This document shows positions 8,370 to 35,357 of a stretch of DNA of 64,000 nt, piece after piece. The position numbers and the translations under genes were made by a program. Within the stretch, counting starts at the first letter, position 1. Every line of letters begins with the position of its first letter. Source of the stretch: Alteromonas sp. LMIT006 (GTDB lineage Bacteria; Pseudomonadota; Gammaproteobacteria; Enterobacterales; Alteromonadaceae); assembly GCF_024300645.1 (NCBI RefSeq), contig NZ_CP101291.1, forward strand, positions 806,001 through 870,000. Reading direction: 5' to 3'. Below the pieces are notes generated by a model. It did no database searches and was not told the DNA's origin. It was given only the letters and a program-made list of their open reading frames with translations.

Positions 8370-8416
8370 AATTACTTGAAAAAATTTAAGTGATTGAAAT
8401 TTAAGGTTATCCATTT

Positions 8417-8528: not shown

Positions 8529-9743
8529 ATGGACACAGTCAATAGTGCCGTTGAGACCTTGCTTCTCAGTGCAAATACTTTATTTATTCTACTAGGTGCC
8601 ATCATGGTGTTTGCCATGCATGCAGGCTTTGCATTTTTAGAAGTTGGTACCGTACGTCATAAAAACCAAGTCAATGCGTTGATCAAAATCATGACTGATT
8701 TTGGTATCTCGTGCTTATGCTACTTTTTCATAGGCTATTTTATCGCTTATGACACGACTTTTTTTGCTAGCGCAGCGAGTTTGAGTGAAAACTCAGGCTA
8801 TGATTTGGTGAAGTTCTTCTTTTTGATGACCTTCGCAGCAGCCATTCCTGCGATTGTATCGGGTGGTATTGCCGAACGCGCTAAATTTTACCCATTTTTA
8901 ATTGCTTCTGGTTTAACCGTCGCTTTTGTATATCCGTTTTTTGAAGGCATTATTTGGAACGGTAATTATGGCTTCCAAACGTGGTTAGAAAGTTCTTTTG
9001 GCGCAGGCTTCCACGATTTTGCAGGCTCTGTTGTGGTGCATGGTATGGGTGGCTGGTTAGCTTTGGTGGCCGTTATTATGCTGGGTATGCGCAATGGTCG
9101 CATGAAGGGCGGTAAAGTCACTGCGTTTGCACCTTCTAATATTCCGTTTTTAGCTTTAGGCGCATGGATTTTGTGCATAGGTTGGTTTGGTTTTAATGTC
9201 ATGTCGGCGCAAACTCTTGATGGGATAAGCGGTTTGGTTGCGGTTAATTCATTAATGGCGATGGTGGGCGGCATTTTAACTGCACTGTGGTTCGGTAAAA
9301 ACGACCCAGGTTTTATTCATAATGGACCATTAGCAGGCTTAGTTGCTGTGTGTGCGGGTTCTGATGTGATGCATCCGATGGGCTCATTGGTTGTAGGTGG
9401 TGTAGCAGGTGCGATTTTTGTCTTGTCATTCACTTGGATGCAAAACAAAACCAAGATTGACGATGTGCTTGGTGTCTGGCCTCTACACGGTATCTGTGGC
9501 GTATGGGGCGGCCTCGCCTGTGGTATTTTTGGCTTGGAAAGCTTTGGCGGTTTAGGTGGCGTATCCTTTATGTCACAACTTATCGGTTCACTTGCTGGAG
9601 TGTCTATAGCTTTAATCGGCGGTGCATTGGTCTATGGTGGTGTTCGAGCGGTATCTGGACTACGCTTGAGTGAAGATGAAGAATACAAAGGTGCTGACTT
9701 AAGTATTCACCGTATTGGCGCAACCAACCAAGAAGAATTTTAA
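8529..9743 (+). CDS. amtB: Ammonium transporter AmtB
   Basis: A 404-residue polytopic inner-membrane channel for ammonium/ammonia. It has the Amt/Rh pattern: an N-terminal helix with MHAGFAFLEVGTVRHKN, the twin pore histidines in GSVVVHGMGGW and VWPLHGICGVWGG, and the GIAERAKFYPFL loop. Its short cytosolic tail is where a PII protein would bind. AGGA lies about 8 bases before ATG 8529. Usually glnK precedes amtB; here no PII gene is next to it, so PII must be encoded elsewhere. NtrC and sigma-54 sites upstream indicate nitrogen-limitation control, and a terminator follows. Confidence 0.95.
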   Translation: MDTVNSAVETLLLSANTLFILLGAIMVFAMHAGFAFLEVGTVRHKNQVNALIKIMTDFGISCLCYFFIGYFIAYDTTFFASAASLSENSGYDLVKFFFLMTFAAAIPAIVSGGIAERAKFYPFLIASGLTVAFVYPFFEGIIWNGNYGFQTWLESSFGAGFHDFAGSVVVHGMGGWLALVAVIMLGMRNGRMKGGKVTAFAPSNIPFLALGAWILCIGWFGFNVMSAQTLDGISGLVAVNSLMAMVGGILTALWFGKNDPGFIHNGPLAGLVAVCAGSDVMHPMGSLVVGGVAGAIFVLSFTWMQNKTKIDDVLGVWPLHGICGVWGGLACGIFGLESFGGLGGVSFMSQLIGSLAGVSIALIGGALVYGGVRAVSGLRLSEDEEYKGADLSIHRIGATNQEEF

Positions 9744-9770
9744 TTTCCTCTGAAATTATTTAAATTAAGT

Positions 9771-9834
9771 AAGGCTGTATTGTTGGCATTGATCTCGTCT
9801 TGAGCTTCACTTCGACCAAAATACAGCCTTTTTC
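9771..9834 (+). terminator. Intrinsic terminator after amtB
   Basis: A 10-bp perfect inverted repeat, AAGGCTGTAT (9771-9780) and ATACAGCCTT (9821-9830), is followed by T's. The 40-nt loop is unusually long, so termination may be modest. It lies between amtB and the convergent flavoprotein gene. Confidence 0.6.
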
Positions 9835-9887
9835 CTGCCCCTTTAGTCTTACAAATCTGATATGTATTTATTTATACTTCCCACAAA

Positions 9888-11084
9888 TCAGCAGTCCATT
9901 CCCGCCACATAGCCACTCGACCACGCCCATTGGAAGTTATATCCCCCGAGCCAGCCGGTCACATCCAGCACTTCACCGATAAAATACAGCCCCTTATGCT
10001 CTTTCGACTCCATGGTCTTTGATGAGAAATGATCGGTATTGACCCCGCCAATGGTGACTTCAGCGGTGCGATAACCTTCAGTACCATTTGGTTTTAGCTG
10101 CCAGCCATGAAGCTTTTGCGCCACCTCAACAAGTTGTTTACCCTGATATTGTTTCATTGGTTTATTATCAATACCCAAATAGGGCAGTAGGGTATTGGCA
10201 AGGCGTTTGGCATAAAAAGGTCCCAAAACAGTAGATAGCTGAGCATTGGGTTGGGATGTTTGAGCTTCAGTTAATACGGTGTGCAAATCAGCATTGGGAG
10301 CCAAATCGACTGTCACCGTTTGTCCGGCTTCCCAATAAGAAGATATTTGCAGTATCGCAGGGCCCGATAAACCGCGATGGGTGAACAAGATATTTTCGTT
10401 AAACAGGGCATTATTGCATTCAGTTGAGGCATTAACGCTGATCCCGCTGAGCATGCTTAAAACCTCTTTATCTTCAGGTTGCAAGGTAAAGGGCACTAAA
10501 GCTGCCCGAGTTGGCACCATGCTCATGCCAAACTGTTCGGCGATTTGATAGCCAAAGGGAGATGCGCCTAGCTTGGGCATTGAGAGGCCGCCGGTTGCAA
10601 TCACCAAAGATTCGCATTGATATTCGCCCTGATTGGTTTTGATTTGATAACCTGTATCTAGCTTATTTATTGCTAGGATCTCGGTTTGGGTCTGAATGGT
10701 TACGTTCCCTAACGCACATTCATCCAATAACAGTTTAACGATGTCTTTTGCAGAGTCATCACAAAACAGTTGGCCAAGGGTTTTTTCGTGATAAGGGATC
10801 TGATAGCGATTGATCAAATCGATAAAATCCCATTGAGTATATTGCTTGAGCGCGGATTTGCAAAAGTGCTGATTTTGTGACAAAAACTGCTCATGTGATG
10901 CGTACATGTTGGTAAAGTTACAACGTCCGCCACCAGACATCAGGATCTTGCGTCCGACTTTTTTGGCGTGATCTAATACCAATACATCACGTCCTCGTTG
11001 GCCTGCGGTCGCGGCACAAAATAAGCCTGCCGCTCCGGCACCGATAACGATCACATCAATTTGTTTAACTTGGGTATCAGACAT
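9888..11084 (-). CDS. HI0933/YhiN (BaiN-like) flavoprotein
   Basis: A 398-residue NAD(P)/FAD-dependent oxidoreductase of the HI0933 family. The N-terminal Rossmann motif is VIVIGAGAAGLFCAATAG followed by the acidic end of strand 2 (VLVLD). Then come KVGRKILMSGGGRCNFTN and the family signature VIATGGLSMPKLGASPFGY; near the C-terminus GLYFIGEVLDVTGWLGGYNF completes the FAD site. The in vivo substrate is not established for most members. The ATG at 11084 directly follows the T-run of the arcA terminator and no Shine-Dalgarno is visible, so translation may be weak or depend on read-through from arcA. Confidence 0.9.
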   Translation of the reverse strand: MSDTQVKQIDVIVIGAGAAGLFCAATAGQRGRDVLVLDHAKKVGRKILMSGGGRCNFTNMYASHEQFLSQNQHFCKSALKQYTQWDFIDLINRYQIPYHEKTLGQLFCDDSAKDIVKLLLDECALGNVTIQTQTEILAINKLDTGYQIKTNQGEYQCESLVIATGGLSMPKLGASPFGYQIAEQFGMSMVPTRAALVPFTLQPEDKEVLSMLSGISVNASTECNNALFNENILFTHRGLSGPAILQISSYWEAGQTVTVDLAPNADLHTVLTEAQTSQPNAQLSTVLGPFYAKRLANTLLPYLGIDNKPMKQYQGKQLVEVAQKLHGWQLKPNGTEGYRTAEVTIGGVNTDHFSSKTMESKEHKGLYFIGEVLDVTGWLGGYNFQWAWSSGYVAGMDC

Positions 11085-11112
11085 AAAAAAAGCCAGTTTT
11101 AAAACTAGCTTA
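11083..11112 (-). terminator. Intrinsic terminator after arcA
   Basis: Read on the minus strand, AAGCTAGTTTT/AAAACTGGCTT forms a hairpin with one mismatch, followed by seven T's. It ends arcA transcription just before the start codon of the next gene. Confidence 0.6.
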
Positions 11113-11155
11113 ATTTTATCATTGATTGGCTTTGTCGCGAAATCAATGTATTCAA

Positions 11156-11863
11156 TTAGGCGTCAACACTGCCACAGAAACGATAACCTTCGCCGTGAAT
11201 GGTGACGATGAGCTCGATCTCACCCGGCTCTGATTCAAAGTGCTTACGAATACGACGAATGGTTACGTCAACTGTGCGGTCATTTGGGCGTAATTCGCGA
11301 CCGGTCATTTCCATAATGAGTTGCTCACGAGTCAAAATCTTGCCCGGGTTAGATAAGAATAAGTGCAAGGCACGAAATTCACTGCGTGGCAAACGGAACT
11401 CATTCCCAGCTGGAGAAACTAAGCAACGACTATCACCATCCAATGTCCAGCCGTTGAATTTAACCTTGCTTGGCAAATCGTCGTCGTCACTGGTATTTGT
11501 GGTACGAGAGAGTAAGTTGCGAGCACGAATGGTTAATTCACGAGGATTAAATGGCTTAGTCAGATAATCATCAGCGCCAATCTCAAGACCTAGGATGCGG
11601 TCGACATCATTGTCACGGCCAGTTAAGAAGATAAGGCCAACATTTTTGCGGTCACGCACTTCACGGGCTAGGATCAAACCGTTCTTACCCGGAAGGTTGA
11701 TGTCCATGATCACAAGATTAATGTTGTTATTGGCGAAAAAGTCATGCATTTGCTCACCGTCTTCTGCTTCATAGACGTTGTAACCTTCAGCTTCAAAGAG
11801 GCTTTTTAACGTAGTGCGTGTCACTACCTCGTCTTCAACAATTAAGATATTAGGCGTTTGCAT
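11156..11863 (-). CDS. arcA: Two-component response regulator ArcA
   Basis: A 235-residue OmpR-type regulator of aerobic/anaerobic respiration, partner of the ArcB sensor. The N-terminal receiver has the acidic pocket ([11 protein letters not shown]), phospho-Asp in [12 protein letters not shown], and the switch lysine in [21 protein letters not shown]. The C-terminal winged helix contains [18 protein letters not shown] and [17 protein letters not shown]. ArcA hallmarks include [14 protein letters not shown] and VYEAEDG. It is monocistronic with its own terminator. Confidence 0.95.
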
Positions 11864-14449: not shown

Positions 14450-15166
14450 TTAAATTGCCTCAAACACCAAATCCCACACCCCATGACCAAGCTTTTGGCC
14501 ACGGACTTCAAATTTAGTGGTGGGTCGGTAATCCGGTCGCTCAACATATGTGCTCGTCGGACTGGTATTGCGATAGTTGGTTTGCGCTTGCATCACTTCA
14601 AGCATGTGCTCAGCGTAAGGCTCCCAATCCGTTGCCATGTGTAAGGTGCCACCTTTGGCTAGTCGAGCATGGACATTTTGTGCAAATTCGGTTTGAACAA
14701 TGCGGCGTTTGTGATGGCGTTTTTTGTGCCATGGATCCGGAAAATACAACTGTAATCTGTGCAAGGAATGTTCAGGAATGCATTTTGCTAATATTTCAAT
14801 AGCGTCATGCTCGAACACTCTGAGGTTAGTTAGTCCCAACTCACCGGCATCCATCAAGCAAGCTCCTACACCAGGGCGATGTACTTCAATGCCGATGAAG
14901 TTCAGTTCGGGGGCGTTTTTCGCCATCTCTACCAATGACTTACCCATTCCGAAACCAATTTCGACCACGACAGGATTATCGTTACCAAAGACGGATTTAA
15001 AATCCAGCATACCCATTGTGACGTCTAAACCCATGGTTGGCCAGAACTCTTTTAAAGCCGCACCTTGGCCCTTGGTTAAACGTCCTTCGCGTTTGACGAA
15101 GCTCTTGACTTCGCTGATGTAGACACCGGCTGCTTCGGCTTCTTCGCGTGTTTGAAAACGACCCAT
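14450..15166 (-). CDS. trmB: tRNA (guanine46-N7)-methyltransferase TrmB
   Basis: A 238-residue SAM-dependent enzyme making m7G46 in the variable loop of tRNAs. Key blocks are [16 protein letters not shown] (SAM binding), [13 protein letters not shown], and [15 protein letters not shown] containing the catalytic aspartate. Length equals E. coli TrmB (239). It diverges from mutY with an 85-bp shared promoter region, the arrangement usual in gammaproteobacteria. Confidence 0.95.
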
Positions 15167-16785: not shown

Positions 16786-16861
16786 GCCTCGATAGCTCAG
16801 TTGGTAGAGCAGCGGATTGAAAATCCGCGTGTCCCTGGTTCGATCCCGGGTCGAGGCACCA
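16786..16861 (+). tRNA. pheT-type tRNA-Phe: tRNA-Phe (GAA)
   Basis: A complete 76-nt cloverleaf with encoded CCA: acceptor GCCTCGA/TCGAGGC, D arm GCTC...GAGC with TTGGTAGA loop, anticodon stem GCGGA/TCCGC with loop TTGAAAA (anticodon GAA), and T arm CCTGG-TTCGATC-CCGGG. Its 3' end (from the T loop through CCA) is the attachment core of the downstream integrative element; the element leaves the tRNA intact. Confidence 0.97.
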
Positions 16862-16863
16862 TT
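16843..16863 (+). repeat. attL core of element 1
   Basis: The T-loop/T-stem/acceptor/CCA part of tRNA-Phe plus two T's (starts ATCCCGGGTCGAGGC). It is repeated exactly at 26796-26816, and flanking similarity drops off at once on the left side. Confidence 0.9.
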
Positions 16864-16937
16864 TTCTTTCTCGAGCCACTCAAAACATCAGTAAAATCAA
16901 CAGTCTCACGCCTACTAAGTTTTTAGGTTACTGTACT

Positions 16938-16979
16938 TTTGTACCAAAATACAACCTTTTTGTACCAGATTTTGTACCA
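16938..16979 (+). promoter_or_regulatory. Three arm-like repeats TTTGTACCA
   Basis: TTTGTACCA occurs at 16938-16946, 16959-16967 and 16971-16979, all in the same orientation; the last two are 12 bp apart. The same 9-mer occurs twice, also 12 bp apart, beside the other end of the element. Position and symmetry suggest arm-type integrase binding sites. Confidence 0.6.
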
Positions 16980-16989
16980 CATAAATTAC

Positions 16990-17129
16990 TTGCAGGGGGC
17001 GGGGAGGGGTAACAGTCATTATACCAGTAATTGGTGCTTCATAAATTTACTAGAAGGTAATTTAAGAAAAAGGCTCATAGACAACAATAAAGACATCTTG
17101 TAATCTGGAATCGGATTGGAGAGTTTTAC
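16990..17129 (+). repeat. Conserved left-end block with G-rich motif (copy 1)
   Basis: Starts with GGGGGCGGGGAGGGG (16995-17009) and continues with GGTGCTTC, then AAATTTAC, GAAGGTAATTTA, AGAAAAAGGCTCATAGACA, and GGAT before the lipoprotein start codon. The same ordered blocks recur at 26935-27068 after the second att copy, with about four of five bases conserved by eye. It is the 5' region of the adjacent small exported-protein gene in both copies. Confidence 0.7.
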
Positions 17130-17780
17130 ATGAAAAACACAAAGCTAATTTTAGTACTATCTGTTTGTTTATTCACGGTCGGATGCTCATCGACAATCAA
17201 ACGAGTGCAAAACAACATCCAACACAAGAAAAACCTAGAAAACATTGTACAAAGATTTACTTATAAGTATGAAGGCCAATGCCGTAAAGAAGCCTATCAG
17301 TATTACCCTGTTGCAATGGTTACGACAACACAAACAAAAAATAAGCCTACAAACTATTACAAGTCTCCGAAAACAGCTACTTGTACATCGATGGGTAATC
17401 AAGTGACGTGTAGAGATACTACAATAGATTTATCACCAATGGTTGATGCTTATGGTGGATATGGCAAAACCACAACTAGCACATATGATGCAAATGCAAG
17501 TGGTAGGAATGGATATGTTAAGTCATGTGTACAAGATGCCTTGAAACAGGATGATAGCTTTATTAGCGCTGTACGTTATGAGAAAAATAGGCATAGTAAG
17601 GCACAAAATAAGGTTAATAACTCGCAGACATACAAACGTTCTATAACAAACAACGGTGAGTTGAAGTTAAGTCATGCGTCCTACGCAACTGGCAGGCTAG
17701 TTTGTTATTATGGCGAATATCAAGAAGAGTATGTACCAGAGCGTCCAACCTGTCCGAAAACAATGCGGTTTAAGCCATAG
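17130..17780 (+). CDS. Element-encoded lipoprotein of unknown function
   Basis: A 216-residue protein with a lipoprotein signal: MKNTKLILVLSVCLFTVGC, Cys19 as the predicted lipidated residue. The mature part is basic and Tyr/Asn/Thr-rich, with further cysteines (CRKEAYQYYP, ATCTSMGNQVTC, VKSCVQDA, RLVCYYGEY, PTCPKTMRF) that could pair in the periplasm. I recognise no family. A GGAG lies about 10 bases before ATG 17130. It is the first gene inside the left end. The corresponding position in the second element also carries a gene starting with a hydrophobic leader, suggesting a conserved cargo slot, possibly for an exclusion or surface function (inference). Confidence 0.75.
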   Translation: MKNTKLILVLSVCLFTVGCSSTIKRVQNNIQHKKNLENIVQRFTYKYEGQCRKEAYQYYPVAMVTTTQTKNKPTNYYKSPKTATCTSMGNQVTCRDTTIDLSPMVDAYGGYGKTTTSTYDANASGRNGYVKSCVQDALKQDDSFISAVRYEKNRHSKAQNKVNNSQTYKRSITNNGELKLSHASYATGRLVCYYGEYQEEYVPERPTCPKTMRFKP

Positions 17781-17919
17781 ATGCGTAAAAATTCAATAAA
17801 AAGGTCAGGCTAATGGCTTTAAAATCCAATAAAATCAAATGCTTATGCGATTTCTAATAATGTAAAAGCAGGATATGCAGCCTAACTGGCACACACACCT
17901 GCTTTATCTGCAGTGACTA

Positions 17920-19215
17920 TTATTTGATATACGAAACTTCTGATGCTTTCTGATAATCAAACTCTTCCGCATCTACATGCCTTATCGCCCACCCCTGGTA
18001 ATGATGGTTATCCTTAAAAAGCGTGTATCCTTTCCTCACTAAAAGTCTTTTACACTGGGCTAATGAATAGCATGATAATTTAGCATTTTTACCCATAGAT
18101 AGTTCCCTAAGATCGATAACGTTGAGTCCGACTTCATTTGCAATGTGGGTCATTCTATTTTCGTCAATCAGTTCCTTAAAGTGCTTAGGTAAAAATATAA
18201 TCTTGTCTTCATTTGCCTCAAGGAAGCTTTCCACCTCAATGATGTCAGCCTTAGTTGCTAATCCCATCGCAAGCCTTTTTTCGTCTGTTTCTGGAGGACG
18301 GTCACCGATAGCCATATCTTCAATTAAAGATGAACTATTTAGGTAATAGGCTATAGATTCTAGCCCACCATTATCAAGGTACTCATAAAATGTATCAAAG
18401 TAAGAACTGTCCTTAGGTTGCATAAATTTAACGTAGTACCTCCGATCATCCTTTTCTAGGTGTGTAGGAGCGTTATTCGATAGCATTATTATGTTTGCTG
18501 GGATTTCAAAATTGCTAAATCCTTTACCCTTTAAGTCACTATTCAACTTTGCGTTTGAGATAAGGCTCTTTAGTTTATTTGCTAACTCGCTTCCGATACT
18601 TATGTCTATCTCGTCGATTACTAGAATTGTTGCTGTAAGTAACTCAACAACGTTCATGCTTTTAAACTTGCTCTGATCCGCAACAATCTTAACAGCACTA
18701 TCACCAAATATTTTACGGATTATGTACGCTAGAGTACCTTTGCCACACCCCTGAGGGCCATAAATATAAAGTGCAGTTGGAGGCTTCTCTAATGGTTTCT
18801 GATACTGCCAAGCAAGCCACTTAATTATGTATTTAGCACTTTCTTCGCCAAATGCAGAATTCATGAAATCTAGGAAAGGTTTTAACGGCGAGGCTTGTTC
18901 AGGTTTGATCTCTGGTTCTCGCCAAGAATTCTTGAAATGATGATCACCTTCTTTTATCACCCGATTACGACCAGGTCTGTATAAGGTAAGGTTTGTCAGT
19001 GAATGCCAGTAGGTATATGGAATTGTTCTAAGTTCAATCCTATGAGGCTCAAAGCATCTTTCAACCATCCACTCATATACATTATAAACTGTAAGACCAT
19101 CAATATCAGAAACAACATCATAAAACCTAATTCCATTTCCAATGCCTGCGCCTTGGATGAAAAACCTTTGCTTTGCTTCTCGCTTTATTGCGAATTCACT
19201 CTTCTTTTTTGACAT
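17920..19215 (-). CDS. D5/DUF5906-type primase-helicase (SF3-like ATPase)
   Basis: A 431-residue protein likely to replicate the element. Walker A is IYGPQGCGKGT at residues 151-161, Walker B is ILVIDEID near 200, and a sensor NIIMLSNN lies near 245, followed by an arginine-containing DDRRYYVKF. This arrangement matches the C-terminal helicase half of phage P4/D5-type and DUF5906 replication proteins. The N-terminal 100 residues are too short for a full primase domain. It is encoded opposite to the lipoprotein and peptidase genes. Members of this family are typical of phage satellites and other small integrative elements. Confidence 0.82.
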   Translation of the reverse strand: MSKKKSEFAIKREAKQRFFIQGAGIGNGIRFYDVVSDIDGLTVYNVYEWMVERCFEPHRIELRTIPYTYWHSLTNLTLYRPGRNRVIKEGDHHFKNSWREPEIKPEQASPLKPFLDFMNSAFGEESAKYIIKWLAWQYQKPLEKPPTALYIYGPQGCGKGTLAYIIRKIFGDSAVKIVADQSKFKSMNVVELLTATILVIDEIDISIGSELANKLKSLISNAKLNSDLKGKGFSNFEIPANIIMLSNNAPTHLEKDDRRYYVKFMQPKDSSYFDTFYEYLDNGGLESIAYYLNSSSLIEDMAIGDRPPETDEKRLAMGLATKADIIEVESFLEANEDKIIFLPKHFKELIDENRMTHIANEVGLNVIDLRELSMGKNAKLSCYSLAQCKRLLVRKGYTLFKDNHHYQGWAIRHVDAEEFDYQKASEVSYIK

Positions 19216-19339
19216 TTTAGACTCCGATACTTTGGGAGTAGCTAGACTAATATATTTTGGAAGTGAACATATATCCCATTCTCATTAACACTGAAGGATC
19301 TTTTGTTGAATGTACTACGTTTTTAGTGTTTTTTATGTT

Positions 19340-19560
19340 TTTCGATTATTCCGGGGAGTTTGTAGGTAGTCAGGTCATGACTATTTTGAACCAAAGTTTA
19401 CATGGCGTCTCTGTTGGAGACTTGTGCTTCGAACATAGCATGAACAGCGCGTGGTTCTGGAGCTAGCGCTCTAAGCTTGCGGCATAGACCCCTCGATGAT
19501 GAAGCGGCTCAAAGAGATAGAAGCCGAGAATAAGGGTTTAAGGACAATGCTACTAAATGT
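19340..19560 (+). pseudogene. Degenerate IS3-family orfA (IS407-like)
   Basis: Translation gives SQVMTILNQSLHGVSVGDLC, then FEHSMNSAWFWS. After an in-frame stop and a one-base frameshift it continues GGIDPSMMKRLKEIEAEN. This is the IS3/IS407 OrfA pattern (SQIMxILKQ...GVxVxDLCREHGMSSAxFYKWRxKxGGMDxSMMKRLKELExEN). Stops and frameshifts show it is dead. It lies just upstream of the peptidase gene; nothing else is seen between 19216 and 19705. Confidence 0.7.
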
Positions 19561-19705
19561 GCCGACTCCCGAGTTAACTTGTTGCTACTGGCGCAAATAT
19601 TGATGTAAAAACTATGGATATAAGTGAAAAGTGACTAAGAAAAAGGCTTAGATTATTTTTCTATGTGATTTGTTACTATAAAGTTGCAAAATTAAAGGAT
19701 TTATT

Positions 19706-22700
19706 ATGGCTCTTTCTAAAATAATAGGTTTGATTTCGGGAATTGCACTATCTGCATTGCTCTTAGTGACCTTGTATTCACATGATGATGAACAAGATAA
19801 AGCGGCTTATATCGCACAGCAAATGATGCAAAAGGCTGCGGAGCAATTAAAATACAGTTCACGTAGCCCTAATCAAGAACCAGAAGTTCAATTCAAATCA
19901 GACTTAAATAATCTAGACAGCTCAAATAACAAGCAAACAGACATAAAAGAGCTTGAGCAAAATTTTAAAGATGCATTTGTTAGAGTTCGGTCAAATACGA
20001 AAGAGGAAAAAAGTCGTTTACCAAAAGAGAAATTAGATGCGCTAAATGAATTAGATAAAAAATTTGGCGCAGATAAATCTACAACTTATACAGTCAATAA
20101 CGCTGGTCAGTTATCAGGTATTTACCCTTCTTATAAACAATCATTCAGTGATGCCGATCAATTTATTGATGAATTAAACGATTTATTAGATACAAACGAA
20201 CATTCAACACTAACTAAAACAAAAGAAGAATGCGCAAAAAACGGTCACTGTGTAAGTCGTTATCAGAGAAAAGTATTTGATTATCCAGTTTTGGAAAATG
20301 ATTTCGTTGTAAGTTTGAATAATGGGAAAGTTGTTTCAGCAATGGGGGTTATGTCTAAACCCAACATAAATTATGAATACTTAAAAAACAGCGATACATT
20401 AAACGATAATGAAATAGAAATATTGCTACAAAATAAATTTGGTGAGCAGTATGTTTTAGAGAAAAATGCTGTTTATGGAATTTATGACGCTAAAGTATCA
20501 GCAATACCTGCGTATCAAGCATCTATTTCTAGTGGCTCTGAAGGTTATGATGTCATTATTAATGCGAGAAACCACCAAATTGTCAGTGAAGTGCCTCATG
20601 TATTGCATGTTAATGCTCAAGGGCAGGACTTAGAAGGAAATACTTACCGATTTGAAGCAGCAAGTGACGGGTCTCGATACTATATGCAAGATGGTCGTTT
20701 TCCGCTAGACAGTTATACCACCTTATTTGATTTACAGGGGGCACTTTATCCTCAACAAGAGCTAAATTATGTTACTTCAAATAGTTTGACTTCAGGATGG
20801 GACCCTTCTGCGGTGTCCGTGTTGTCACACTTCGACAGCCTTATTACACTCTTTAGAAAAGATTATAATTATGAATTCGAGACAGCGAACGGAAGACCGG
20901 TTTATATATATGTTAATGAAGGTCAAGAAAACGCAACCGCAAACGCTAACATTTTTAAATTTGGGAGGTCTGCAAATCTAAATTATGCAAATGCTAGAGA
21001 TGTTGTTGGACATGAGTTGACTCATGCAATCATTATGGCGACTAGCAACCTGAAATACGCCAACCAATCTGGAGCACTTAATGAATCGTTTGCAGATTTA
21101 TTTGGCACATTGGCTTCTGATGACGGAAACTGGCTTTTAGGTGAGGATGCTCGTTATGACGGTGGTTACTTAAGAAACATGAAAAATCCAGGTGATGATA
21201 ACGTTATAGGTTTTGCTCAGCCGTCGCATTTTAAACAGTATGTATACAATGGTAGCGTACATAGAAACTCTGGTATACCGAATCGCTTTTTCTACCTTGT
21301 CGCTGAGGGCAATGTTAACAATAGGATTGGGAGAACTAAAACTGGAGTGATCGCGTTTGATGTATTACGTTCATTAAATAGATACGCGAGTTTTATCGAC
21401 TTTTATCAGGCTATGAAAGCGCAGGCATCTACGCGTTACGGCACAGATAGTGATGAAGTGTCTGCCATTGTAGAAGCCGGGCAAAAAATTGGCTTCGAGT
21501 CTCAAGGTGTCAGCAAAAACGAGGTAAGCACAAACCAACTTGCACCAAGTATAAACGCAACCTTATTTTTAAATTATAACTACCTTTTTGGGACCTATAA
21601 TTTGAACATGCAGCTGTTTAACTCAAATAACCGCACATATGACAGCGATTCTGTTTTGACTCTTTCTTATTTAGCAAATAACGCTAGGCCTGCAGCGGGT
21701 GTTTTTTCTAATGGAGAGGAATCTGAGCTTGCAGTTCTGTATAAATCTTTCGATGGATCGATTGGTTACGTGTTTTACAATTCAGAGACTGGTTATGGAC
21801 AAGACACCTTTTTAGATAGTAATGCAGCGGCTAATTTCAATAAAATATCGGTTGATAGACAATATAAAAGTATGGCGAGCAGTCTAACTGGCGATAACCA
21901 AAATCAAATTCTATTGTTAGATACGGAAAGTTTTGAGATTAACACCGTTGGTCCAACTGGTCCGTCTTATACACAAGCTGAGAGTGGTTTTCCAGTTGAA
22001 ATAGTTGATGTTGTGGAATTTGATTCAACCGGTCGCTACTTGGCGTTTGATTATTTATCTTCAACTCCAGATGGTCAAACGTTTTGGTCTATCGGTATTT
22101 TGGAGATAGAGACAGGCTTTATTAGTTACCCGTTTTCAAGATTACCCACAAACATCTCTGTAGGTAATCCAACATTTAGTAACATTAATAGTGAAATTAT
22201 TATTTTTGATGCATTGTTTAGCGAAACAAATCAAAGTGCCGTATATGCCTTAAATACTCGAACAGGTAGTGTTTCCGCTATTACAGAAACAAACATTAGC
22301 GATACAAGTGGACATTTAGCCTATCCATCATTTACGCAAAACGATAATGCCGCTATTTTTGCATTAAAAGTAGGAAATGGTATTGATGATCAATACCTGG
22401 TTAGTATTGGGCTAGACGAGAATTATGAAGGCATTGAAGGTAGCTATGAGTATCTTAACCCTGTAACTCCTGCAAAATACATTAGAACTATTCCAATTGA
22501 TATTTACCAAGACACACTAACACTGACACAAAACAGAACCACGTTTGATTTTGGGGATGTTACATCGGAACAATCAGGTGAAATTTGCCTTACCAATGAA
22601 TCAACCCATCCTATTGAAATCAATGAGGTGAGGCATGATGCAGGAGTTTCTTTAAGTGCATTACCTAGCTATTACAGCGGAGGAGAAGAAGTTTGTGCGC

Positions 22701-24649
22701 CTGTTACTGTAAAAATAGAAGAATTGCCTTTAGGCTTGTTTAATCTTAACGCTGAATTAGATCACAATGGCACAAGTCAGCCTATTATTTTAACATTTAC
22801 AGGAAATAAACTATCTGATTTTGACAATGACGGCATTCCAGATGCGACTGACCATGATGATGATAATGATGGCACAGCTGATGTGGATGATGCCTTCCCG
22901 TTTGATGCAACTGAAACCAAAGACACTGACAACGATGGCATTGGTAACAACGCTGATACCGACGATGACGATGACGGCCTGAGTGACGAAGTCGAGATTG
23001 CAAACGGCCTAGATCCATTAAATGCGTCAGATGCCAATGCAGATAACGATAATGATGGTGTATCAAACGCGATTGAAATCGCTAATGGCACCAATCTATC
23101 GGTAGATGAGTTCCCGCCTGAATTCAGAAGTTTGGGCGGTCCTATTACCGTTGTTGCAACGGGTGAATTAACCCAAATTAATAGCGTCACCCCGCCTTTG
23201 GCGTTCGATAATGGCGTAAGAATGAATGTTATTTCCTCTCATTCGGGAGGCTTTCCAGTTGGTGTCACCACCATAACATATACGGCAACGGATAAAGCAG
23301 GTAACAGTGCTACCGCAGAGCGTATGATTACTGTCATCCCCTATATCAGCGCTGGTGCAGATAAAACGGTGGCCGAAGGCCAAACCATCGATATACGGTT
23401 AACATTGAATGCAGAAGCATTGACATACCCCGTTACGGGTACGCTGATCCTATCTGGTACGGCAGTAAATGGTGAAGATTACACCGTTTCAACCAGTGAC
23501 GTGATGATTGAAGAAGGAACCGAACAAACCGTTCAATTCACAATCCTAGACGATGGCTTGGGTGATAATAATGAAACCCTTAGAATCACGTTTGATAATT
23601 TAGTGAATGCTGGGACCAGAGCGCTTGAAAGTACTGATTTAGCGATCAGCGAAGACAATTTACCACCTACCCTTACCATGTCTGTGTCTCAAAACGACAT
23701 CGTGTCACGCACAGTCAATAAATCCACCATAGTGTACATCTATGTGGAAGCAAACGATCCAAATGGGATGACTGAGCTGCCTTTGACTTTCAGCGGGATA
23801 AACGGCTTGGTAAGAGAATCTGGCTATGACTTAAGTTTTAACCCAATCAATTTAGATGCTGGCGTTTATGAGTTGTTGGTTGGTGTTCGAGACGATCAAT
23901 ACTCGGTAGAAAAGAGTCTCATCATCAATATATTGGATGGTACGACCTCTCGAACTGCGCAAGATGCGGACTCGGATAACGATGGCATTGCCGATAGTGT
24001 TGATACAATTAGGCAACCTAATATACAGGCCGTTGGTAATGGTTTTGCAACTGCTCAGGAAGGTGTCACGCTTGCGCTAGGTTTGCAAGCAATGAGCGCA
24101 GGCAATACAGGCATCGTTATGACTGAGTCGCAAATAGGAGAAGATCTGCAATTTGATTACTCGTTGATTATGGATTTCATGCTATCTGGGTTGGATAACG
24201 GCGCAAGCTATGAGCTTGTTATACCGCTATCAGAATCACTTCCGGGAAATGCAGTATACCGCAAAAATAATGGCACTCGTTGGTTGGATTTTGTGATCAA
24301 CGCAAACAATGCTGTGTTCAGTGCCAATACAACCGGTGATTGTACTGATTTAGCAGAAAATGAATGGGTGTCTGGTCTGAATACTGGGGCTAATTGCTTG
24401 AAACTGCTCATCGAAGACGGTGGTCCGAACGACATGGACGGACGTGTGAATGGACAAGTACAAGATCCGTCTGGCATTGCCACGCCAATCAGCACGAATA
24501 CCAACACAAATACGAACACCAACACTAATACCAATAGTGGCGGTAATAGCTCTAACGGAGACAGTGGAGGTAGTGTGAGTATCTGGTGGTTGTTGCTGTT
24601 GTTAGTTATTTTTAAACGCAACCTTATGGTGAAAAGTGGAGTTGTTTAA
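19706..24649 (+). CDS. Giant secreted M4 (thermolysin-like) metallopeptidase with GlyGly-CTERM anchor
   Basis: A 1647-residue exported protein. An N-terminal hydrophobic segment (residues 4-24) serves as signal. Residues ~50-330 look like the FTP/propeptide region of M4 zymogens. The catalytic domain has zinc motif HELTH at ~436-440 and GALNESFADLFG at ~459, with the domain-2 signature RNSGIPNRFFYLVAEG. Residues ~640-930 resemble a TolB-like propeller. Thrombospondin type-3 calcium repeats (DFDNDGIPD, DDDNDGTADVDDA) span ~1035-1128. An HYR-like module (PVGVTTITYTATDKAGNSA) and a Calx-beta-like module (AVNGEDYTVS) follow. A Thr-Asn repeat linker at ~1595-1611 leads to the C-terminal GlyGly-CTERM (GGSVSIWWLLLLLVIFKRN), a rhombosortase sorting signal. 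AAGGA precedes ATG 19706. Expected role: extracellular proteolysis, an unusual cargo for a small integrative element. Confidence 0.9.
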   Translation: MALSKIIGLISGIALSALLLVTLYSHDDEQDKAAYIAQQMMQKAAEQLKYSSRSPNQEPEVQFKSDLNNLDSSNNKQTDIKELEQNFKDAFVRVRSNTKEEKSRLPKEKLDALNELDKKFGADKSTTYTVNNAGQLSGIYPSYKQSFSDADQFIDELNDLLDTNEHSTLTKTKEECAKNGHCVSRYQRKVFDYPVLENDFVVSLNNGKVVSAMGVMSKPNINYEYLKNSDTLNDNEIEILLQNKFGEQYVLEKNAVYGIYDAKVSAIPAYQASISSGSEGYDVIINARNHQIVSEVPHVLHVNAQGQDLEGNTYRFEAASDGSRYYMQDGRFPLDSYTTLFDLQGALYPQQELNYVTSNSLTSGWDPSAVSVLSHFDSLITLFRKDYNYEFETANGRPVYIYVNEGQENATANANIFKFGRSANLNYANARDVVGHELTHAIIMATSNLKYANQSGALNESFADLFGTLASDDGNWLLGEDARYDGGYLRNMKNPGDDNVIGFAQPSHFKQYVYNGSVHRNSGIPNRFFYLVAEGNVNNRIGRTKTGVIAFDVLRSLNRYASFIDFYQAMKAQASTRYGTDSDEVSAIVEAGQKIGFESQGVSKNEVSTNQLAPSINATLFLNYNYLFGTYNLNMQLFNSNNRTYDSDSVLTLSYLANNARPAAGVFSNGEESELAVLYKSFDGSIGYVFYNSETGYGQDTFLDSNAAANFNKISVDRQYKSMASSLTGDNQNQILLLDTESFEINTVGPTGPSYTQAESGFPVEIVDVVEFDSTGRYLAFDYLSSTPDGQTFWSIGILEIETGFISYPFSRLPTNISVGNPTFSNINSEIIIFDALFSETNQSAVYALNTRTGSVSAITETNISDTSGHLAYPSFTQNDNAAIFALKVGNGIDDQYLVSIGLDENYEGIEGSYEYLNPVTPAKYIRTIPIDIYQDTLTLTQNRTTFDFGDVTSEQSGEICLTNESTHPIEINEVRHDAGVSLSALPSYYSGGEEVCAPVTVKIEELPLGLFNLNAELDHNGTSQPIILTFTGNKLSDFDNDGIPDATDHDDDNDGTADVDDAFPFDATETKDTDNDGIGNNADTDDDDDGLSDEVEIANGLDPLNASDANADNDNDGVSNAIEIANGTNLSVDEFPPEFRSLGGPITVVATGELTQINSVTPPLAFDNGVRMNVISSHSGGFPVGVTTITYTATDKAGNSATAERMITVIPYISAGADKTVAEGQTIDIRLTLNAEALTYPVTGTLILSGTAVNGEDYTVSTSDVMIEEGTEQTVQFTILDDGLGDNNETLRITFDNLVNAGTRALESTDLAISEDNLPPTLTMSVSQNDIVSRTVNKSTIVYIYVEANDPNGMTELPLTFSGINGLVRESGYDLSFNPINLDAGVYELLVGVRDDQYSVEKSLIINILDGTTSRTAQDADSDNDGIADSVDTIRQPNIQAVGNGFATAQEGVTLALGLQAMSAGNTGIVMTESQIGEDLQFDYSLIMDFMLSGLDNGASYELVIPLSESLPGNAVYRKNNGTRWLDFVINANNAVFSANTTGDCTDLAENEWVSGLNTGANCLKLLIEDGGPNDMDGRVNGQVQDPSGIATPISTNTNTNTNTNTNTNSGGNSSNGDSGGSVSIWWLLLLLVIFKRNLMVKSGVV

Positions 24650-24799
24650 AATGAAAGAACAATGTCGAGCTGAATTTTGATTATGACAACATGAAGCCTA
24701 TGGACAAAATCAATGCAAAGCGCCCCAAGCAGATAAGTGGAATATTGAAAAAGACCTAATGACAGCGCATCATCAATGTTTAATGCCGCACATAAACAA

Positions 24800-25130
24800 A
24801 GCAATAAGCTGAACACGGATAATAAGAAAGTGCTTCAAGCTTATAACTTACGTCAACCTCCAAAAGCCTAAGTGTTTCACTTTGGCAAAGGGTCACAATA
24901 TACCAGCAAAAATTATCGTTAACAGTTAGCTGATTAATGGTATTGGTGCTAGTATGGGCGATGTTTGAGCTTGTTGGAATAATGGTATTGTACAGAGGTT
25001 CTTCGGCAATTTAAAACATGATTGGTTACTGAAAGTGCCACAGACAACTCGTGGGCATATGAGAAATGATGTGGCAGAGTATATGCGCTATTATCGCTTA
25101 GAACGACTTCATACAGCTAACTGTGATCAT
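24800..25130 (+). pseudogene. Degenerate IS3-family orfB (3' part)
   Basis: Fragments KVLQAYNLRQPPKA, FHFGKGSQYTSKNYR, GIGASMGDV, VQRFFGNLKHDWLLKVPQTT and YMRYYRLERLHTAN follow the IS3-family DDE transposase C-terminal half in order (normal: VFHSDRGSQYTS...ASMSxxGxCWDNA.xExFFxxLKxE). Several in-frame stops and a degraded DD-motif show it is a remnant. It occupies most of the gap between the peptidase and integrase genes; 24650-24800 shows no recognisable feature. Confidence 0.75.
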
Positions 25131-25210
25131 ATTTATCTATTGGTAATTCTTGTGCTTGATACCCATTTATACAATAATTGACTAATAGTATTAAGTTGCT
25201 ATACAGCCTC

Positions 25211-26692
25211 TCACATCACTCTTAACATACTGTTTAGTTCCACTACATTATCCACAGGAGTATCTAGTAGATGCTTATGGATAATCCTACTTGTATCTCT
25301 TAGTCCGACGATGAAATCACTTTCAGCTAGACTTTCAGAACCATAATGCAACATATGTCTACTTACTCCAGCTTTACCAGCTCCCCATCCAGCAATTAGC
25401 GCAACACTCTTAGAGTCGACATTGCAACTATTAGCGTTTGCTGCCAATGAATGTCTTAAACAATGACCAGTGAAGGTGTGTGTGCTATGTGGAAGGGCTT
25501 TGGCAATGAAGCGCTTGATGTAGACGTAATGATTGCCGTTAGAAGTCTTATGACACCATGCTATAGTCTGTTCAATGTGCTGCTTGATAAACTCTAATGC
25601 AAAGACGATTGGAACCACTCTGGCTCTAGCAGTCGTTTTACCCTTGGGGATCACGATATGAGGTATGTCTGATGCCAAACCACTTAAGACATCCTCAACA
25701 TTTAAAGAACTCACCTCACTTGGCATAACGCCGCCTTGTAAATACAACAGACACAGACATGCGCTAAATGATTGCAGGTTTTGACCTTCCTGCTCGGTAC
25801 AGTAGCGAACCAGCTCAAGTTGTTCCGTTTTATTAAGTGGATATCTTGTTTTTGCGTCTTGACCGACAATCTCAGGTTTAATCAGATTCCAGTTCAGTTT
25901 CCACTTGCGCTTGATGTAATTCAGGATGCGGAATAAGTCTGTCACCTCCCTCTTAATTGTGTTTCTACTCAAAGGGGTTCCTTTAGCAGTGGTGTGCTTA
26001 AGACGTTCATCTCTATAAGAATCAAGGCTCCAATTGATTAGCTCTGCAGTACCTGTTGAACACAAGTGATCACCGAGGTATTTGTAAAACCTATTCCAGT
26101 TGGTGATGCAGTCACGTCTACTTTTAGCCGTAAGCGTATCTTTTTTATCCTCTAGATAGGTTTTGAGTATTTCTGAAGTATGTTGCTGCTCTAGCTTGGA
26201 AGCATCAAGTAAAGCCTGCCATGCTAGGCTAGTCGCTTTGTCATGGAAGGATTCAGTATCTTGTTGATAGGCCTGATATGCCTCCTCAATGTCTGGTATG
26301 AGCTCGTCAGCTTTCTCTGCCGCAGATTTGTAGATACTGTGGGTGTATTGATGATTCTCGTCAAACTGTGGCTCGCCACGCTCTTCATAGTCCTTAAGAA
26401 GACCTGGCGTAAGCTTTTGAGAGCGAAGTATCTTTTTGGCTGCAGCGATAAGCTGTGAATGACTTGCGTCGTCAGGATCTTGTGTTTTACAGAACTGTAT
26501 CAGCTGTTCATAATCTTTGGACAGCTCGAGATATTTCTCGTCAAAATCCAGCTGTGATGTTGCTGAAACATGAAGTTTCATTGGAGCAACATACCGAGTT
26601 TTATTTGCTATTGCTTGATATTGTTGCGGTATTCCTCGTGTATAGTAATACAGATCATTTTTGACTGTAACGTACTTTTTCTTGAATGACAT
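25211..26692 (-). CDS. Tyrosine-recombinase integrase of element 1
   Basis: A 493-residue phage-type integrase. The N-terminus (KKKYVTVKNDLYYYTRGIPQQ) resembles the arm/DUF6538-like start of marine integrases. The SAM-like core-binding domain is at ~150-270 (KSRRDCITNWNRFYKYLGDH). The catalytic part has HxxR (GHCLRHSL), the Trp/His position (AGWG) and the Tyr nucleophile (RHMLHYGSE). The position normally holding catalytic Arg I reads GGVMPSEV, Met instead of Arg (compare TGxRPSE). GGAGGTGAGTT before ATG 26692 is a strong ribosome-binding site. The gene lies next to attR and is read toward the element interior. It would catalyse integration/excision at tRNA-Phe. Confidence 0.9.
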   Translation of the reverse strand: MSFKKKYVTVKNDLYYYTRGIPQQYQAIANKTRYVAPMKLHVSATSQLDFDEKYLELSKDYEQLIQFCKTQDPDDASHSQLIAAAKKILRSQKLTPGLLKDYEERGEPQFDENHQYTHSIYKSAAEKADELIPDIEEAYQAYQQDTESFHDKATSLAWQALLDASKLEQQHTSEILKTYLEDKKDTLTAKSRRDCITNWNRFYKYLGDHLCSTGTAELINWSLDSYRDERLKHTTAKGTPLSRNTIKREVTDLFRILNYIKRKWKLNWNLIKPEIVGQDAKTRYPLNKTEQLELVRYCTEQEGQNLQSFSACLCLLYLQGGVMPSEVSSLNVEDVLSGLASDIPHIVIPKGKTTARARVVPIVFALEFIKQHIEQTIAWCHKTSNGNHYVYIKRFIAKALPHSTHTFTGHCLRHSLAANANSCNVDSKSVALIAGWGAGKAGVSRHMLHYGSESLAESDFIVGLRDTSRIIHKHLLDTPVDNVVELNSMLRVM

Positions 26693-26716
26693 AACTCACC
26701 TCCAATGTCTAAGGCA

Positions 26717-26737
26717 TTTGTACCATGTTTTGTACCA
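26717..26737 (+). promoter_or_regulatory. Two arm-like repeats TTTGTACCA near attR
   Basis: TTTGTACCA at 26717-26725 and 26729-26737, 12 bp apart as in the left-end cluster and just upstream of the integrase start. They may serve both as integrase arm sites and as operators for integrase autoregulation. Confidence 0.6.
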
Positions 26738-26795
26738 CATGGTGTAGGACATTGGCGTTAACGTCTGATTTTTAAGTGTTTTTTGTGTTTGTTAT

Positions 26796-26816
26796 ATCCC
26801 GGGTCGAGGCACCATT
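26796..26816 (+). repeat. Second att copy (attR of element 1 / attL of element 2)
   Basis: Identical to 16843-16863 over 21 bp. Only the tRNA 3' end is duplicated, so this is not a functional tRNA. The sequence to its right again begins the element left-end module, showing that a second element lies in tandem. Confidence 0.9.
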
Positions 26817-26881
26817 CTCCTCTCAAGCCACCATTTAATCACAGTATTTATGCGACTTTTATCGCCTAGACTATCAAAACG

Positions 26882-26899
26882 CTACCAGTTTGGCTACCA
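26882..26899 (+). promoter_or_regulatory. Arm-like repeat pair of element 2 (CTACCA)
   Basis: CTACCA at 26882-26887 and 26894-26899, 12 bp apart, the same spacing as the TTTGTACCA pairs of element 1 but with GCTACCA in place of GTACCA. They lie at the equivalent position, between the att core and the G-rich block. Confidence 0.45.
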
Positions 26900-26933
26900 C
26901 ATTGATTTATTTATTACCCAGTGATTTTCTTGT

Positions 26934-27068
26934 AGGGGGCGGGGAGGGGTAACATCACTTCTATTGTTTATAGGTGCTTCTCAAATTTACAAGAAGGTAA
27001 TTTAGGAAAAGGGCTTATAGACACTAAGGCTGATATCTTGTAGTGTAAATTAGGATTGGGAGATTGTA
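26934..27068 (+). repeat. Conserved left-end block with G-rich motif (copy 2)
   Basis: GGGGGCGGGGAGGGG (26935-26949), then GGTGCTTC, AAATTTAC, GAAGGTAATTTA, GAAAAGGGCTTATAGACA and a GGGAG just before an ATG at 27069, in the same order as 16995-17129. It is evidence for a second related element rather than a chance repeat. Confidence 0.7.
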
Positions 27069-27097
27069 ATGAATAAATTTCCAATAGCACTGCTGTT
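27069..27097 (+). pseudogene. 5' stub of a small exported-protein gene, cut by an IS
   Basis: ATG 27069 encodes MNKFPIALLF, a leader-like start preceded by GGGAG, at the same place as the lipoprotein gene of element 1. After nine codons it runs into the terminal repeat (TGAATCGCCACC) of an IS3-family remnant. The rest of the gene is lost. Confidence 0.5.
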
Positions 27098-27727
27098 TGA
27101 ATCGCCACCAGTAATCTAGACACTTCCCAGCCTTTCTTGGTAACGGTTTTCATACTCTACTGGTGACAGCAGATTATTGGAACCATGTTTTCTTTTGCAG
27201 TTATAAAACATCTCGATGTATTCAAAGATATCGCTTCTGGCATCGTCTCTTGTTGAGTAGATTTTTCGCTTGATGCGTTCACGTTTCAGTAGTTGGAAGA
27301 AACTCTCAGCAACAGCATTGTCGTGACAGTTTCCTCGTCTGCTCATGCTACCTTCCAGGCCATTAGCTTTGAGGAATGCTTGCCAATCATGGCTGGTGTA
27401 CTGGCTTCCCTGGTCGGAATGCACCATCACTTGTTGTTTAGGATTACGCCGCCAGACAGCCATCAGCAGCGCATTCAGCACAATGTCTTTGGTAATGCGT
27501 GACTGCATTGACCAGCCAATCACTTTGCGTGAGAACAAATCCACGACCACTGCCAGATATAACCAACCTTCGTGAGTGCGGATATGTGTAATATCCGTTA
27601 CCCAGGCTTCATCTGGCGCCGTAGGATTAAACTGACGCTGCAACCGGTTGGGAACAACAATGTGACTCTCACCACCACGATGACGTGGCCTGCGATAGCC
27701 CACCTGAGCCTTCAGATCTTCTGAGCA
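27098..27727 (-). pseudogene. IS3-family orfB remnant (5' truncated)
   Basis: The terminus TGAATCGCCACCAGTAATCT at 27098 is followed by a minus-strand transposase fragment of about 203 residues: DLKAQVGYRRPRHRGG, EAWVTDITHIRTHEGWLYLAV (split motif), VMVHSDQGSQYTS and NCHDNAVAESFF. The D, D and E of the DDE core are all present. The frame ends in a stop upstream of DLKAQ, so orfA and the orfB start are missing. The same IS end occurs at 33615 and, inverted, at 38869. Confidence 0.85.
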
Positions 27728-33366: not shown

Positions 33367-33614
33367 TTGAGAGTGCTTTTAGTTATCCTATTTTTATGTT
33401 TTTCACCATTTTCTTATGCTGACGGCAACGAATTTTTATCTAAGTGTAAGAGTACTTTAGGATTATTAGACTTAGAATCGCCTGAGCGTGAGGAGAATTT
33501 TATTGTTGTCGGATATTGTCTAGGTAAAGTTCAAGGTGTGCGGGATATGAATTTTGTTTATGAAGTATTAAAGGGTAAAGATAATGTGTATTTCTGCATT
33601 CCGGAACAAGCGAC
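33367..33614 (+). pseudogene. Rap1a/Tai-type exported protein, 3' truncated by an IS
   Basis: A TTG start preceded by AGGAGG (10 bases upstream) opens a frame with a Sec signal (MRVLLVILFLCFSPFSYA). The mature part NEFLSKCKSTLGLL..., VVGYCLGKVQGVRDM and YFCIPEQAT fits the Rap1a/Tai immunity-protein domain: conserved G-Y-C-x-G-x-x-x-G and C-I-P with two disulfide cysteines. Family members continue ~30 residues past CIP; here the IS terminus TGTATCGCC begins at 33615 and replaces the end. Relatives neutralise type VI secretion amidases, but many are orphans of unknown role. Confidence 0.6.
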
Positions 33615-33719
33615 TGTATCGCCACCAGTAATCTAGACACTTCTCAGTCGTTCTTCATATTGCTTTTCAAATTCTATCGGTGAAAGCATATTATTGGAAC
33701 CATGTTTTCGTTTTTTGTT
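33615..33719 (-). pseudogene. 3' end of IS3-family orfB
   Basis: Terminus TGTATCGCCACCAGTAATCT followed on the minus strand by the last ~28 transposase codons (KRKHGSNNMLSPIEFEKQY, then EERLRSV and stop). It is similar to but not identical with the copy at 27098, so it is a sister IS. The rest is missing: it joins directly to the integrase fragment at about 33720. Confidence 0.75.
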
Positions 33720-33722
33720 GTA

Positions 33723-34185
33723 TCAAGCATCTAGTAGATGCGAGTTAATTGTAAGAGATGTTTTATAGAGCGCTTCAACAATCTCATTATTTTGCATGTC
33801 AGCCATTCCATAGCGAAGCATCCTCTCAGAAAGTCCTATTTGCTTTCCAGACCAGCCAGCAATGAGAGCGGCATCTGCTGGGTTAGCATTCGTACATACA
33901 GAATTGTGTTTAAATGAGTGTCGTAAACAATGTGCAGTTTGTCCTGGCATATGCGGAACAAGTTCAGCTAACATGATTTTCATTTGTCTAGAGCAATTAT
34001 CAGTGCTGGTATTGTTTAGCCATTTGATAAGCTCATTGATGTTATCCCTAACAAATTGAAGCCCGACAGTTATTGGTATAACCCTCTTTCTTGCTTGTGT
34101 TTTAGTTTCTCGGTTAACCACTAGGAAAGGGTATTCCTTATCAAGGTAAATATCTTCAGTTCTGAGCCTCTTTACCTCAGAGGGC
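33723..34185 (-). pseudogene. C-terminal fragment of a second tyrosine integrase
   Basis: About 153 residues of integrase catalytic domain, starting in PSEVKRLRTEDIYL and containing TAHCLRHSFKHN (HxxR), LIAGWSGKQIG and the Tyr segment ERMLRYGMAD. It is clearly related to the element 1 integrase (both end in ...HLLD). The N-terminal two thirds and the residue at Arg I are cut off by the IS at 34186. It is presumably the integrase of element 2. Confidence 0.8.
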
Positions 34186-34203
34186 TGGTAAGGCCTGACT
34201 TCT

Positions 34204-35037: not shown

Positions 35038-35060
35038 GGGATAACGTGAACAACGAGACT

Positions 35061-35357
35061 TTATAAACCGGTATCTTTCTTTGACTCGCCGGCAAAGAAT
35101 ACCGCGGCTTCCTTTAACAGGTTCCTTTCTTGCTCAAGGCGCTTCAACTCACGTTTTAACCTTGCATTTTCAGCTCGTAAGTCCTGGTCTTCTACTCGTG
35201 CTTTAGTTGGCTTTGAAAATCTTTTAAGCCACGCATAAAGCGTCTTAGTGCTTATACCGAGACGTTCTGCAACATCGTTAACAGCGTAGCCATGGACAGC
35301 AACTTGATTCACTGCTTCTTGCTTAAACTCGTCTGTATATCGGATACCTTTACCCAT
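35061..35357 (-). CDS. IS3-family OrfA (HTH protein)
   Basis: 98 residues: an HTH_Tnp_1 domain (YTDEFKQEAVNQVAVHGYAV, ...RLGISTKTLYAWLKRF) followed by a leucine-zipper coiled coil (LRAENARLKRELKRLEQERN). It recognises the IS ends and multimerises with OrfB. The end of the frame carries the presumed frameshift site for OrfAB. Confidence 0.9.
   Translation of the reverse strand: MGKGIRYTDEFKQEAVNQVAVHGYAVNDVAERLGISTKTLYAWLKRFSKPTKARVEDQDLRAENARLKRELKRLEQERNLLKEAAVFFAGESKKDTGL

Follow-up and report, generated by a model that had tools for sequence, protein, structure and literature searches.

What do the two integrative elements at a single tRNA-Phe gene of Alteromonas sp. LMIT006 have in common, and what is the short non-coding module that each carries behind its copy of the tRNA 3′ end? 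The window, i.e., the whole stretch of 64,000 nucleotides analyzed here (positions 806,001 to 870,000 of the forward strand of contig NZ_CP101291.1; coordinates below are window positions), is part of a single-contig 2.53-Mb genome. A preliminary description of this DNA had proposed two related elements in tandem, the first complete and the second a wreck, with the same ordered left-end module following each tRNA repeat. We judge it probable, at about three chances in four, that both are cargo-carrying phage satellites, element 2 being a remnant, with an integrase at one end and a mimic of the helper phage's packaging site at the other.

Two left ends at one tRNA gene

The tRNA-Phe (GAA) gene (16786..16861, + strand), which is the integration target, is the sole tRNA in the window. 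Its 3′ end, ATCCCGGGTCGAGGCACCATT, 21 bp by eye, is attL, the left attachment (att) site, of element 1 (16843-16863, +), and a copy at 26796..26816 (+) is both attR of element 1 and attL of element 2. Allowing up to three mismatches, the first 19 bases of ATCCCGGGTCGAGGCACCATT were found at only these two places in the window, against 0.00 expected from 100 shuffles, confirming the 21-bp repeat at 16843 and 26796. Measured from att start to att start, element 1 spans 9,953 bp; both att sites are present and the gene for its tyrosine integrase (25211..26692, −, 493 aa; below cut-off in Pfam, PHROG 1 at E 1e-18), which adjoins the right att copy, is uninterrupted, in line with the proposed completeness of the element.

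Module 1 (16985..17132, +), which we read as the mimic of a phage packaging (cos-like) site, comprises a G-tract (16995-17009) and a block (17033-17071); module 2 (26925..27071, +), in the element 2 remnant, has its G-tract at 26935-26949 and its block at 26973-27010. The motif GGGGGCGGGGAGGGG is exact at 16995 and 26935 and has no third match in the window even with three mismatches allowed (0.25 expected). Compared from ahead of the G-tract as far as the following start codon, the two modules align with a single gap, at 76.5% over 153 nt. The motif and the block after both repeats were therefore described correctly, but not everything in the proposed left end was equally constant. Paired arm-like repeats are indeed present at both left ends, but their sequences differ: element 1 has three copies of TTTTGTACCA inside attL (16937..16982, +) and, inside attR (26717..26740, +), a repeat pairing with 16959-16982, so that by eye TTTGTACCA lies inside both of its att sites. 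As element 2 has GCTACCA instead of TTTGTACCA (by eye), the arms are not common to both. Likewise, the gene after module 1 (lipoprotein-like, 17130..17780, +; no Pfam or PHROG match) does begin with what is by eye a lipoprotein leader, MKNTKLILVLSVCLFTVGCSS, but a secretion-leader gene proved to be frequent rather than fixed, the gene adjoining the site varying among relatives in other genomes.

After the second att copy there is a second left end with the module, other arm-like repeats, and an interrupted gene start, of which about ten codons are left (27069..27098, +) before an IS3-family insertion sequence (IS) fragment (27099..27703, −; rve domain at 27119-27703) terminates element 2. Outside the module and the att core, the two left ends are unlike each other. 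In genome G197, which is near-identical, the IS fragment and its right flank recur at 99.6%, but the DNA to the left of the IS is different. For these two reasons, a local duplication, which the preliminary description had named among the findings that would refute it, is unlikely, and element 2 appears to have inserted separately and to have been reduced to a stub afterwards, rather than to duplicate part of element 1.

Neither an Rfam family at the module nor a convincing RNA fold shared by the two copies was found (z −0.6 for module 1 and −2.1 for module 2). Searches with the module itself returned several candidates that were rejected. With blastn, module 1 matched, among 295 family and 295 order genomes, only its own genome and 28 nt of G197, which sit amid ordinary chromosomal genes; 19-mer matches in Enterobacter and in a Rhodospirillales metagenome-assembled genome likewise lie in or at chromosomal genes. 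A phage collection gave nothing beyond short weak matches, pattern searches of viral contigs with the downstream block gave zero matches and then six unrelated ones, and a match in Marine virus AG-345-E15 was due to chance.

A phage site upstream of terminase genes and its bacterial counterparts

An 18-mer around the G-tract matches two viral contigs, L045 and L046, and these are the best phage matches of both window modules: pairwise scores with L046, L045, and a third phage are 59, 50, and 33 for module 1 and 44, 48, and 38 for module 2. In L046, the match continues downstream (75% over 79 nt). The site there occupies a long gap without coding sequence, with leftward genes on one side and rightward genes on the other, and is followed on the right, in the same orientation, by a small terminase-like gene, an endolysin, and the large terminase, the small terminase being labeled by its position and by homology within the set, with no PHROG match. 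The L045 DNA polymerase shares 49-50% identity with its counterparts in Pelagibacter phages HTVC103P, 104P, and 115P.

The best 80 relatives were then gathered by similarity to the L046 large terminase, blind to the motif; L047 was left out because its large terminase is truncated at the contig end, and the remaining 79 together with L046 gave 80 loci. A strong upstream G-tract was seen in 53 of these, followed after 20-25 nt by a block that they have in common; 17 had a weaker G-tract and 10 had less than 1000 nt of upstream sequence, and neither of these two groups was trained on. Within the window, a phage-only profile, trained on 52 upstream sites without L046 and without the window, gave its highest score to module 2 (27.4 bits, E 1.1e-7) and its second highest to module 1 (13.6 bits, E 0.002); simulated background of 2 Mb reached 9.5 bits at most. 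Module 2 still came first when the G-tract was removed from the profile (E 0.0027).

Overall, the site is present in 83 of 98 viral loci, 52 of them by construction as the training set; because L099 and L129 are the same contig, which is counted twice in the 98-locus, 83-locus, and DnaA-box tallies, this corresponds to 82 of 97 distinct contigs. Ten of the 15 loci lacking a site have less than 1000 nt upstream, and five have 1127-2794 nt. In 81 of the 83 loci (80/82 distinct contigs), a homologue of the small terminase begins 127-622 nt downstream of the site in the same orientation, and the exceptions, L045 and L130, are loci whose sequence stops within 371 nt, ahead of any small terminase. 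To the left of the site, the closest open reading frame (ORF) differs among loci in its strand, its length, and how far away it lies. Because a conserved non-coding site thus keeps to the small-terminase gene in phages, it is most simply a packaging site, and the module, in matching it, is more than a left-end signature. DnaA boxes lie directly left of the G-tract at some phage sites, L064, L072, and L095 being examples.

Bacterial genomes were scanned with a sequence-only model, R1, built from the phage and window sites. Across 345 family genomes, one site beyond the window modules was accepted, in the congener G181 (E 3.2e-4), ~300 nt from a partial tRNA-Ser copy and inside a segment of 5,885 bp with a 20-bp repeat at either end. 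Two more were found among 350 class genomes, both in G617, which belongs to another gammaproteobacterial family. One of these is inside an element of 2,729 bp in which 44 bp of tRNA-Arg(CCT) are repeated and GTGTGACA arm repeats stand at both ends; its genes encode a transglycosylase lipoprotein and an integrase that by eye stops before the usual catalytic tyrosine. Adding the two G617 sites to R1 yielded model R2, which found 14 sites at E 0.005 in nine of 57 genomes of G617's family; a strong subset of 11 sites (E ≤3e-5) fell in seven of the 57, and the two G617 sites already in the model are among the 11. In 168 family and 158 class genomes at E 0.001, the only further matches with R2 were in G675 (4.5e-4) and G766 (8e-5), G181 being apparently outside the 168-genome draw. 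G766 was dropped despite its E value, as were G264, G862, G954, and G964, for having no G-tract at the match. When the phage-only profile was applied to 13 bacterial loci, it gave 11 matches at E ≤0.03 in 10 of them, and none on the reversed loci and reversed window.

Of 16 bacterial sites, 13 have a tRNA, whole or as a fragment (Phe, Ser, His, or Arg with three anticodons), within 450 nt on the G-tract side, and none has one on the opposite side. Seven elements, element 1 included, are bounded by att repeats, at 2,729, 3,835, 5,885, 5,890, 5,892, 7,439, and 9,953 bp, and an integrase, intact, broken, or as a fragment, occupies the end opposite the site in the window element, L201, L218, L219 (assigned by eye), L220, L222, and L224; in L222 the fragment adjoins a tRNA-Arg at its other end. 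The cargo is varied, comprising lipoproteins (by eye), Sel1 and SNase proteins, an inverse autotransporter domain, a HIT protein, and two photolyase-family proteins; PADLOC gave weak matches for three of eight proteins tried. No homologue of the phage large or small terminase was found in the window or in the 13 bacterial loci. The islands therefore fit phage satellites, in that they have the site at one end and an integrase and yet lack this terminase.

The preliminary description had suggested looking in related genomes for the G-rich block near a tRNA-Phe 3′ end with a co-located integrase. Such arrangements were found, mostly at tRNAs other than tRNA-Phe, and they support both the tandem pair and the family with a fixed end to which it was assigned, the end consisting of tRNA fragment, arm repeats, G-tract, and block, with the integrase opposite.

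Other loci seen in these scans are more fragmentary. In L183 (G181:C8:490000-509500), islands stand in tandem at a tRNA-Ser, the full tRNA being 31 kb off and the partial copy between the islands; the site-bearing island has an IS3 element inside and no integrase was found in it. The second G617 site (L202, G617:C17:107000-126500, at 14649-14743) is 140 nt from a tRNA-Arg(TCT) with no element integrase recognized nearby, and is possibly a leftover end. In L219 (G983:C5:42000-53822), an 18-bp tRNA-Arg(CCG) repeat bounds an element at 5599-11509 whose cargo is two photolyase-family genes; each tRNA copy is followed by a site, and two elements seem for this reason to be in tandem. The G675 candidate, in another family (L196, G675:C94, 182-258), has a long G-run and no tRNA in the 1.8 kb examined, and L155 (G264), near a tRNA-Leu, has a partial model match (E 3.3e-4) without a G-tract.

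How the site may serve, and what else it could be

From the att sites, the integrase, the helicase, the homology of the modules, the terminase-proximal position in phages, and the arrangement seen elsewhere, we infer a course of excision, packaging, and transfer as follows. The tyrosine integrase would insert the element into the tRNA-Phe 3′ end. Infection by a helper phage would bring about its excision and copying, probably by its own D5/DUF5906 helicase (17920..19215, −; a primase family in phages) together with the phage replisome. At the end opposite the integrase, the module would imitate the packaging site lying immediately ahead of the helper's terminase genes, and the phage terminase would cut the satellite DNA, probably as a multi-copy concatemer, and pack it into phage heads for delivery to new cells. 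In lambda cos, the cutting end is distal and the terminase-binding part proximal; by analogy, cutting would take place at the G-tract end, and the small terminase would bind the block 20-25 nt downstream of it. The helper would be a phage like contigs L045 and L046. In the host genome, no third site was found with R1 and no resident prophage with the site was seen, and the helper is therefore probably virulent, as for the phage-inducible chromosomal minimalist islands (PICMIs). That the exported cargo guards the host against other phages is a guess.

Several findings weigh against the satellite reading. The match of module 1 to the phage-only profile is weak, its E value of 0.002 rising to 26 without the G-tract. 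Three bacterial loci (L183, L224, and L226) are missed by this profile at E 0.05; for L222, the highest pairwise score with any phage site (25) does not reach its shuffled maximum of 30; the sites of L217, L222, and L225 have no tRNA nearby; and no integrase was found in the repeat-bounded G181 element. No satellite DNA came to light when viral contigs were scanned with three of the element integrases, and no isolate of the phage group was found, none among 1379 matching records having a large terminase of ≥60% identity. Nor do contigs end sharply at the site: three of 83 loci start within 15 nt of the profile start, and seven start between 15 nt inside it and 99 nt to its left, a loose enrichment that is only suggestive as proof of phage termini. 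Finally, 25 of 80 phage loci have a DnaA box no more than 80 nt to the left of the G-tract. This last observation keeps in play the main rival, that the shared site is a replication origin from which the phage replisome amplifies the element, its transfer being achieved otherwise; the element would still be a satellite. An origin would also suit the position of the L046 site between leftward and rightward genes and the presence in the element of a helicase of the phage primase family. However, the site stays with the small terminase in nearly all phage loci while its left side varies, no DnaA box is present at either window end, and L201, L218, and L224 have no recognized helicase or primase (by eye, with Pfam on some genes), and we consider an origin unlikely.

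It is quite improbable that the module is instead a promoter or leader for the adjacent gene, i.e., the small terminase in phages and exported proteins in islands. Conservation does reach the start codon of the next gene in both window copies, but no sigma-70-like promoter was seen in either module; in phages the conserved part stops at least 119 nt before the small terminase, and by eye L046 and L137 carry good promoter-like sequence in between; and in some islands the next gene is distant or on the opposite strand. An accessory or attachment feature of the island integrase, shared with phages by happenstance, would account for the module always being near the att end in islands where att was found. 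That is scarcely credible given that no integrase homologue was found in the 98 terminase-bearing phage loci, which yet keep the site, and that the arm repeats differ between islands whereas the module is common. Composition could in principle produce G-runs beside tRNAs, with the second copy as a local duplication: weak R1 matches are common (90/345 genomes at E 0.1, mostly noise), and G-rich 19-mers are present in unrelated genes. This explanation is hardly tenable and is already contradicted by the controls, as a profile trained without the window ranks both modules, the reversed control is empty, tRNA neighbors are confined to one side of the sites, and the arm repeats are unlike at the two window ends.

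If the satellite reading is right, a short non-coding site would predict where packing starts in a large uncultured marine phage group, and the same site would pick out the islands riding along in those phages. Satellites could then be found in genomes without knowing their genes, and helper specificity would become testable. Passages of a 2024 essay (PMC11389934) note that the pairing of phage and island is often unknown because packaging sites are hard to recognize; no description of the present site was seen in the titles and abstracts of the literature searched, of which coverage was partial. More speculatively, and with somewhat less than even odds, tRNA islands in marine Gammaproteobacteria may need little beyond an integrase and a copied packaging site in order to travel. 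Each would be tuned to one phage lineage by its version of the site, the other cargo (lipoproteins, nucleases, photolyases, peptidases) being helpful to the host, and the non-coding site, rather than a gene of any kind, would both define the family and name the helper.

Remaining gene content and kinship with known systems

The largest gene of element 1 encodes a 1647-aa M4 metallopeptidase with a HYR domain (19706..24649, +). It looks like later cargo because IS3-family remnants are on both sides, OrfA on the left (19391..19640, +) and OrfB on the right (24641..25205, +). No head or tail Pfam families were found in the four element-1 genes, and PHROGs were run on three element-1 proteins only; AlpA had no match among the four genes and ten small ORFs (≥30 aa) outside them. 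No relative of the element-1 integrase turned up among plasmids or phages. Outside its own genome, the sole other relative among 295 family genomes is 35% identical and lies at a contig end (L008, G213:C15, 6-1166). Within the window, a second wrecked region (33367-38443) contains a Rap1a-like gene start, an HNH gene, IS3-family copies, and an integrase C-terminal fragment (33723-34211) 38% identical to the element-1 integrase; the pieces may be dispersed remains of a further element. At the same tRNA-Phe end, three congeners (G090, G118, and G213; loci L015, L017, and L021) share another end sequence, which has repeats ATACCGTAAAAAATACCGTAA and lacks the G-rich motif.

The elements differ from a prophage in that no terminase of their own was found, the search being for the present terminase family. 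In P4 with P2, and in the cos-type phage-inducible chromosomal islands (PICIs), the satellite has a cos site in common with its helper. Unlike in those systems, no capsid-size or terminase-redirecting gene was recognized among the element genes tested, and the helper here would belong to an uncultured marine phage group. Tycheposons use tRNA integration sites. Together with the virion-encapsidated integrative mobile elements (VEIMEs), they resemble the present elements in being marine integrative elements thought to move in virions (mentioned in PMC10803314 and PMC11389934), and the present elements may fall within the VEIMEs.

Close parallels are also seen with the PICMIs of Vibrionaceae, as portrayed in the portions available of their description (PMC10803314): a PICMI is a small marine island with an integrase, a primase of the DUF3987/DUF5906 type, and variable accessory genes, without capsid-remodeling genes, and it depends on a virulent helper phage. 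Element 1 has the integrase and the DUF5906 primase family in common with them. The PICMI model there requires alpA and sites next to fis. Element 1, in which no AlpA was found and which is at tRNA-Phe instead of fis, is for these reasons not a PICMI by the published definition. The PICMI authors report, in the same portions, that they were unable to identify cos or pac, whereas a packaging-like site is precisely the feature that the present elements have in common.

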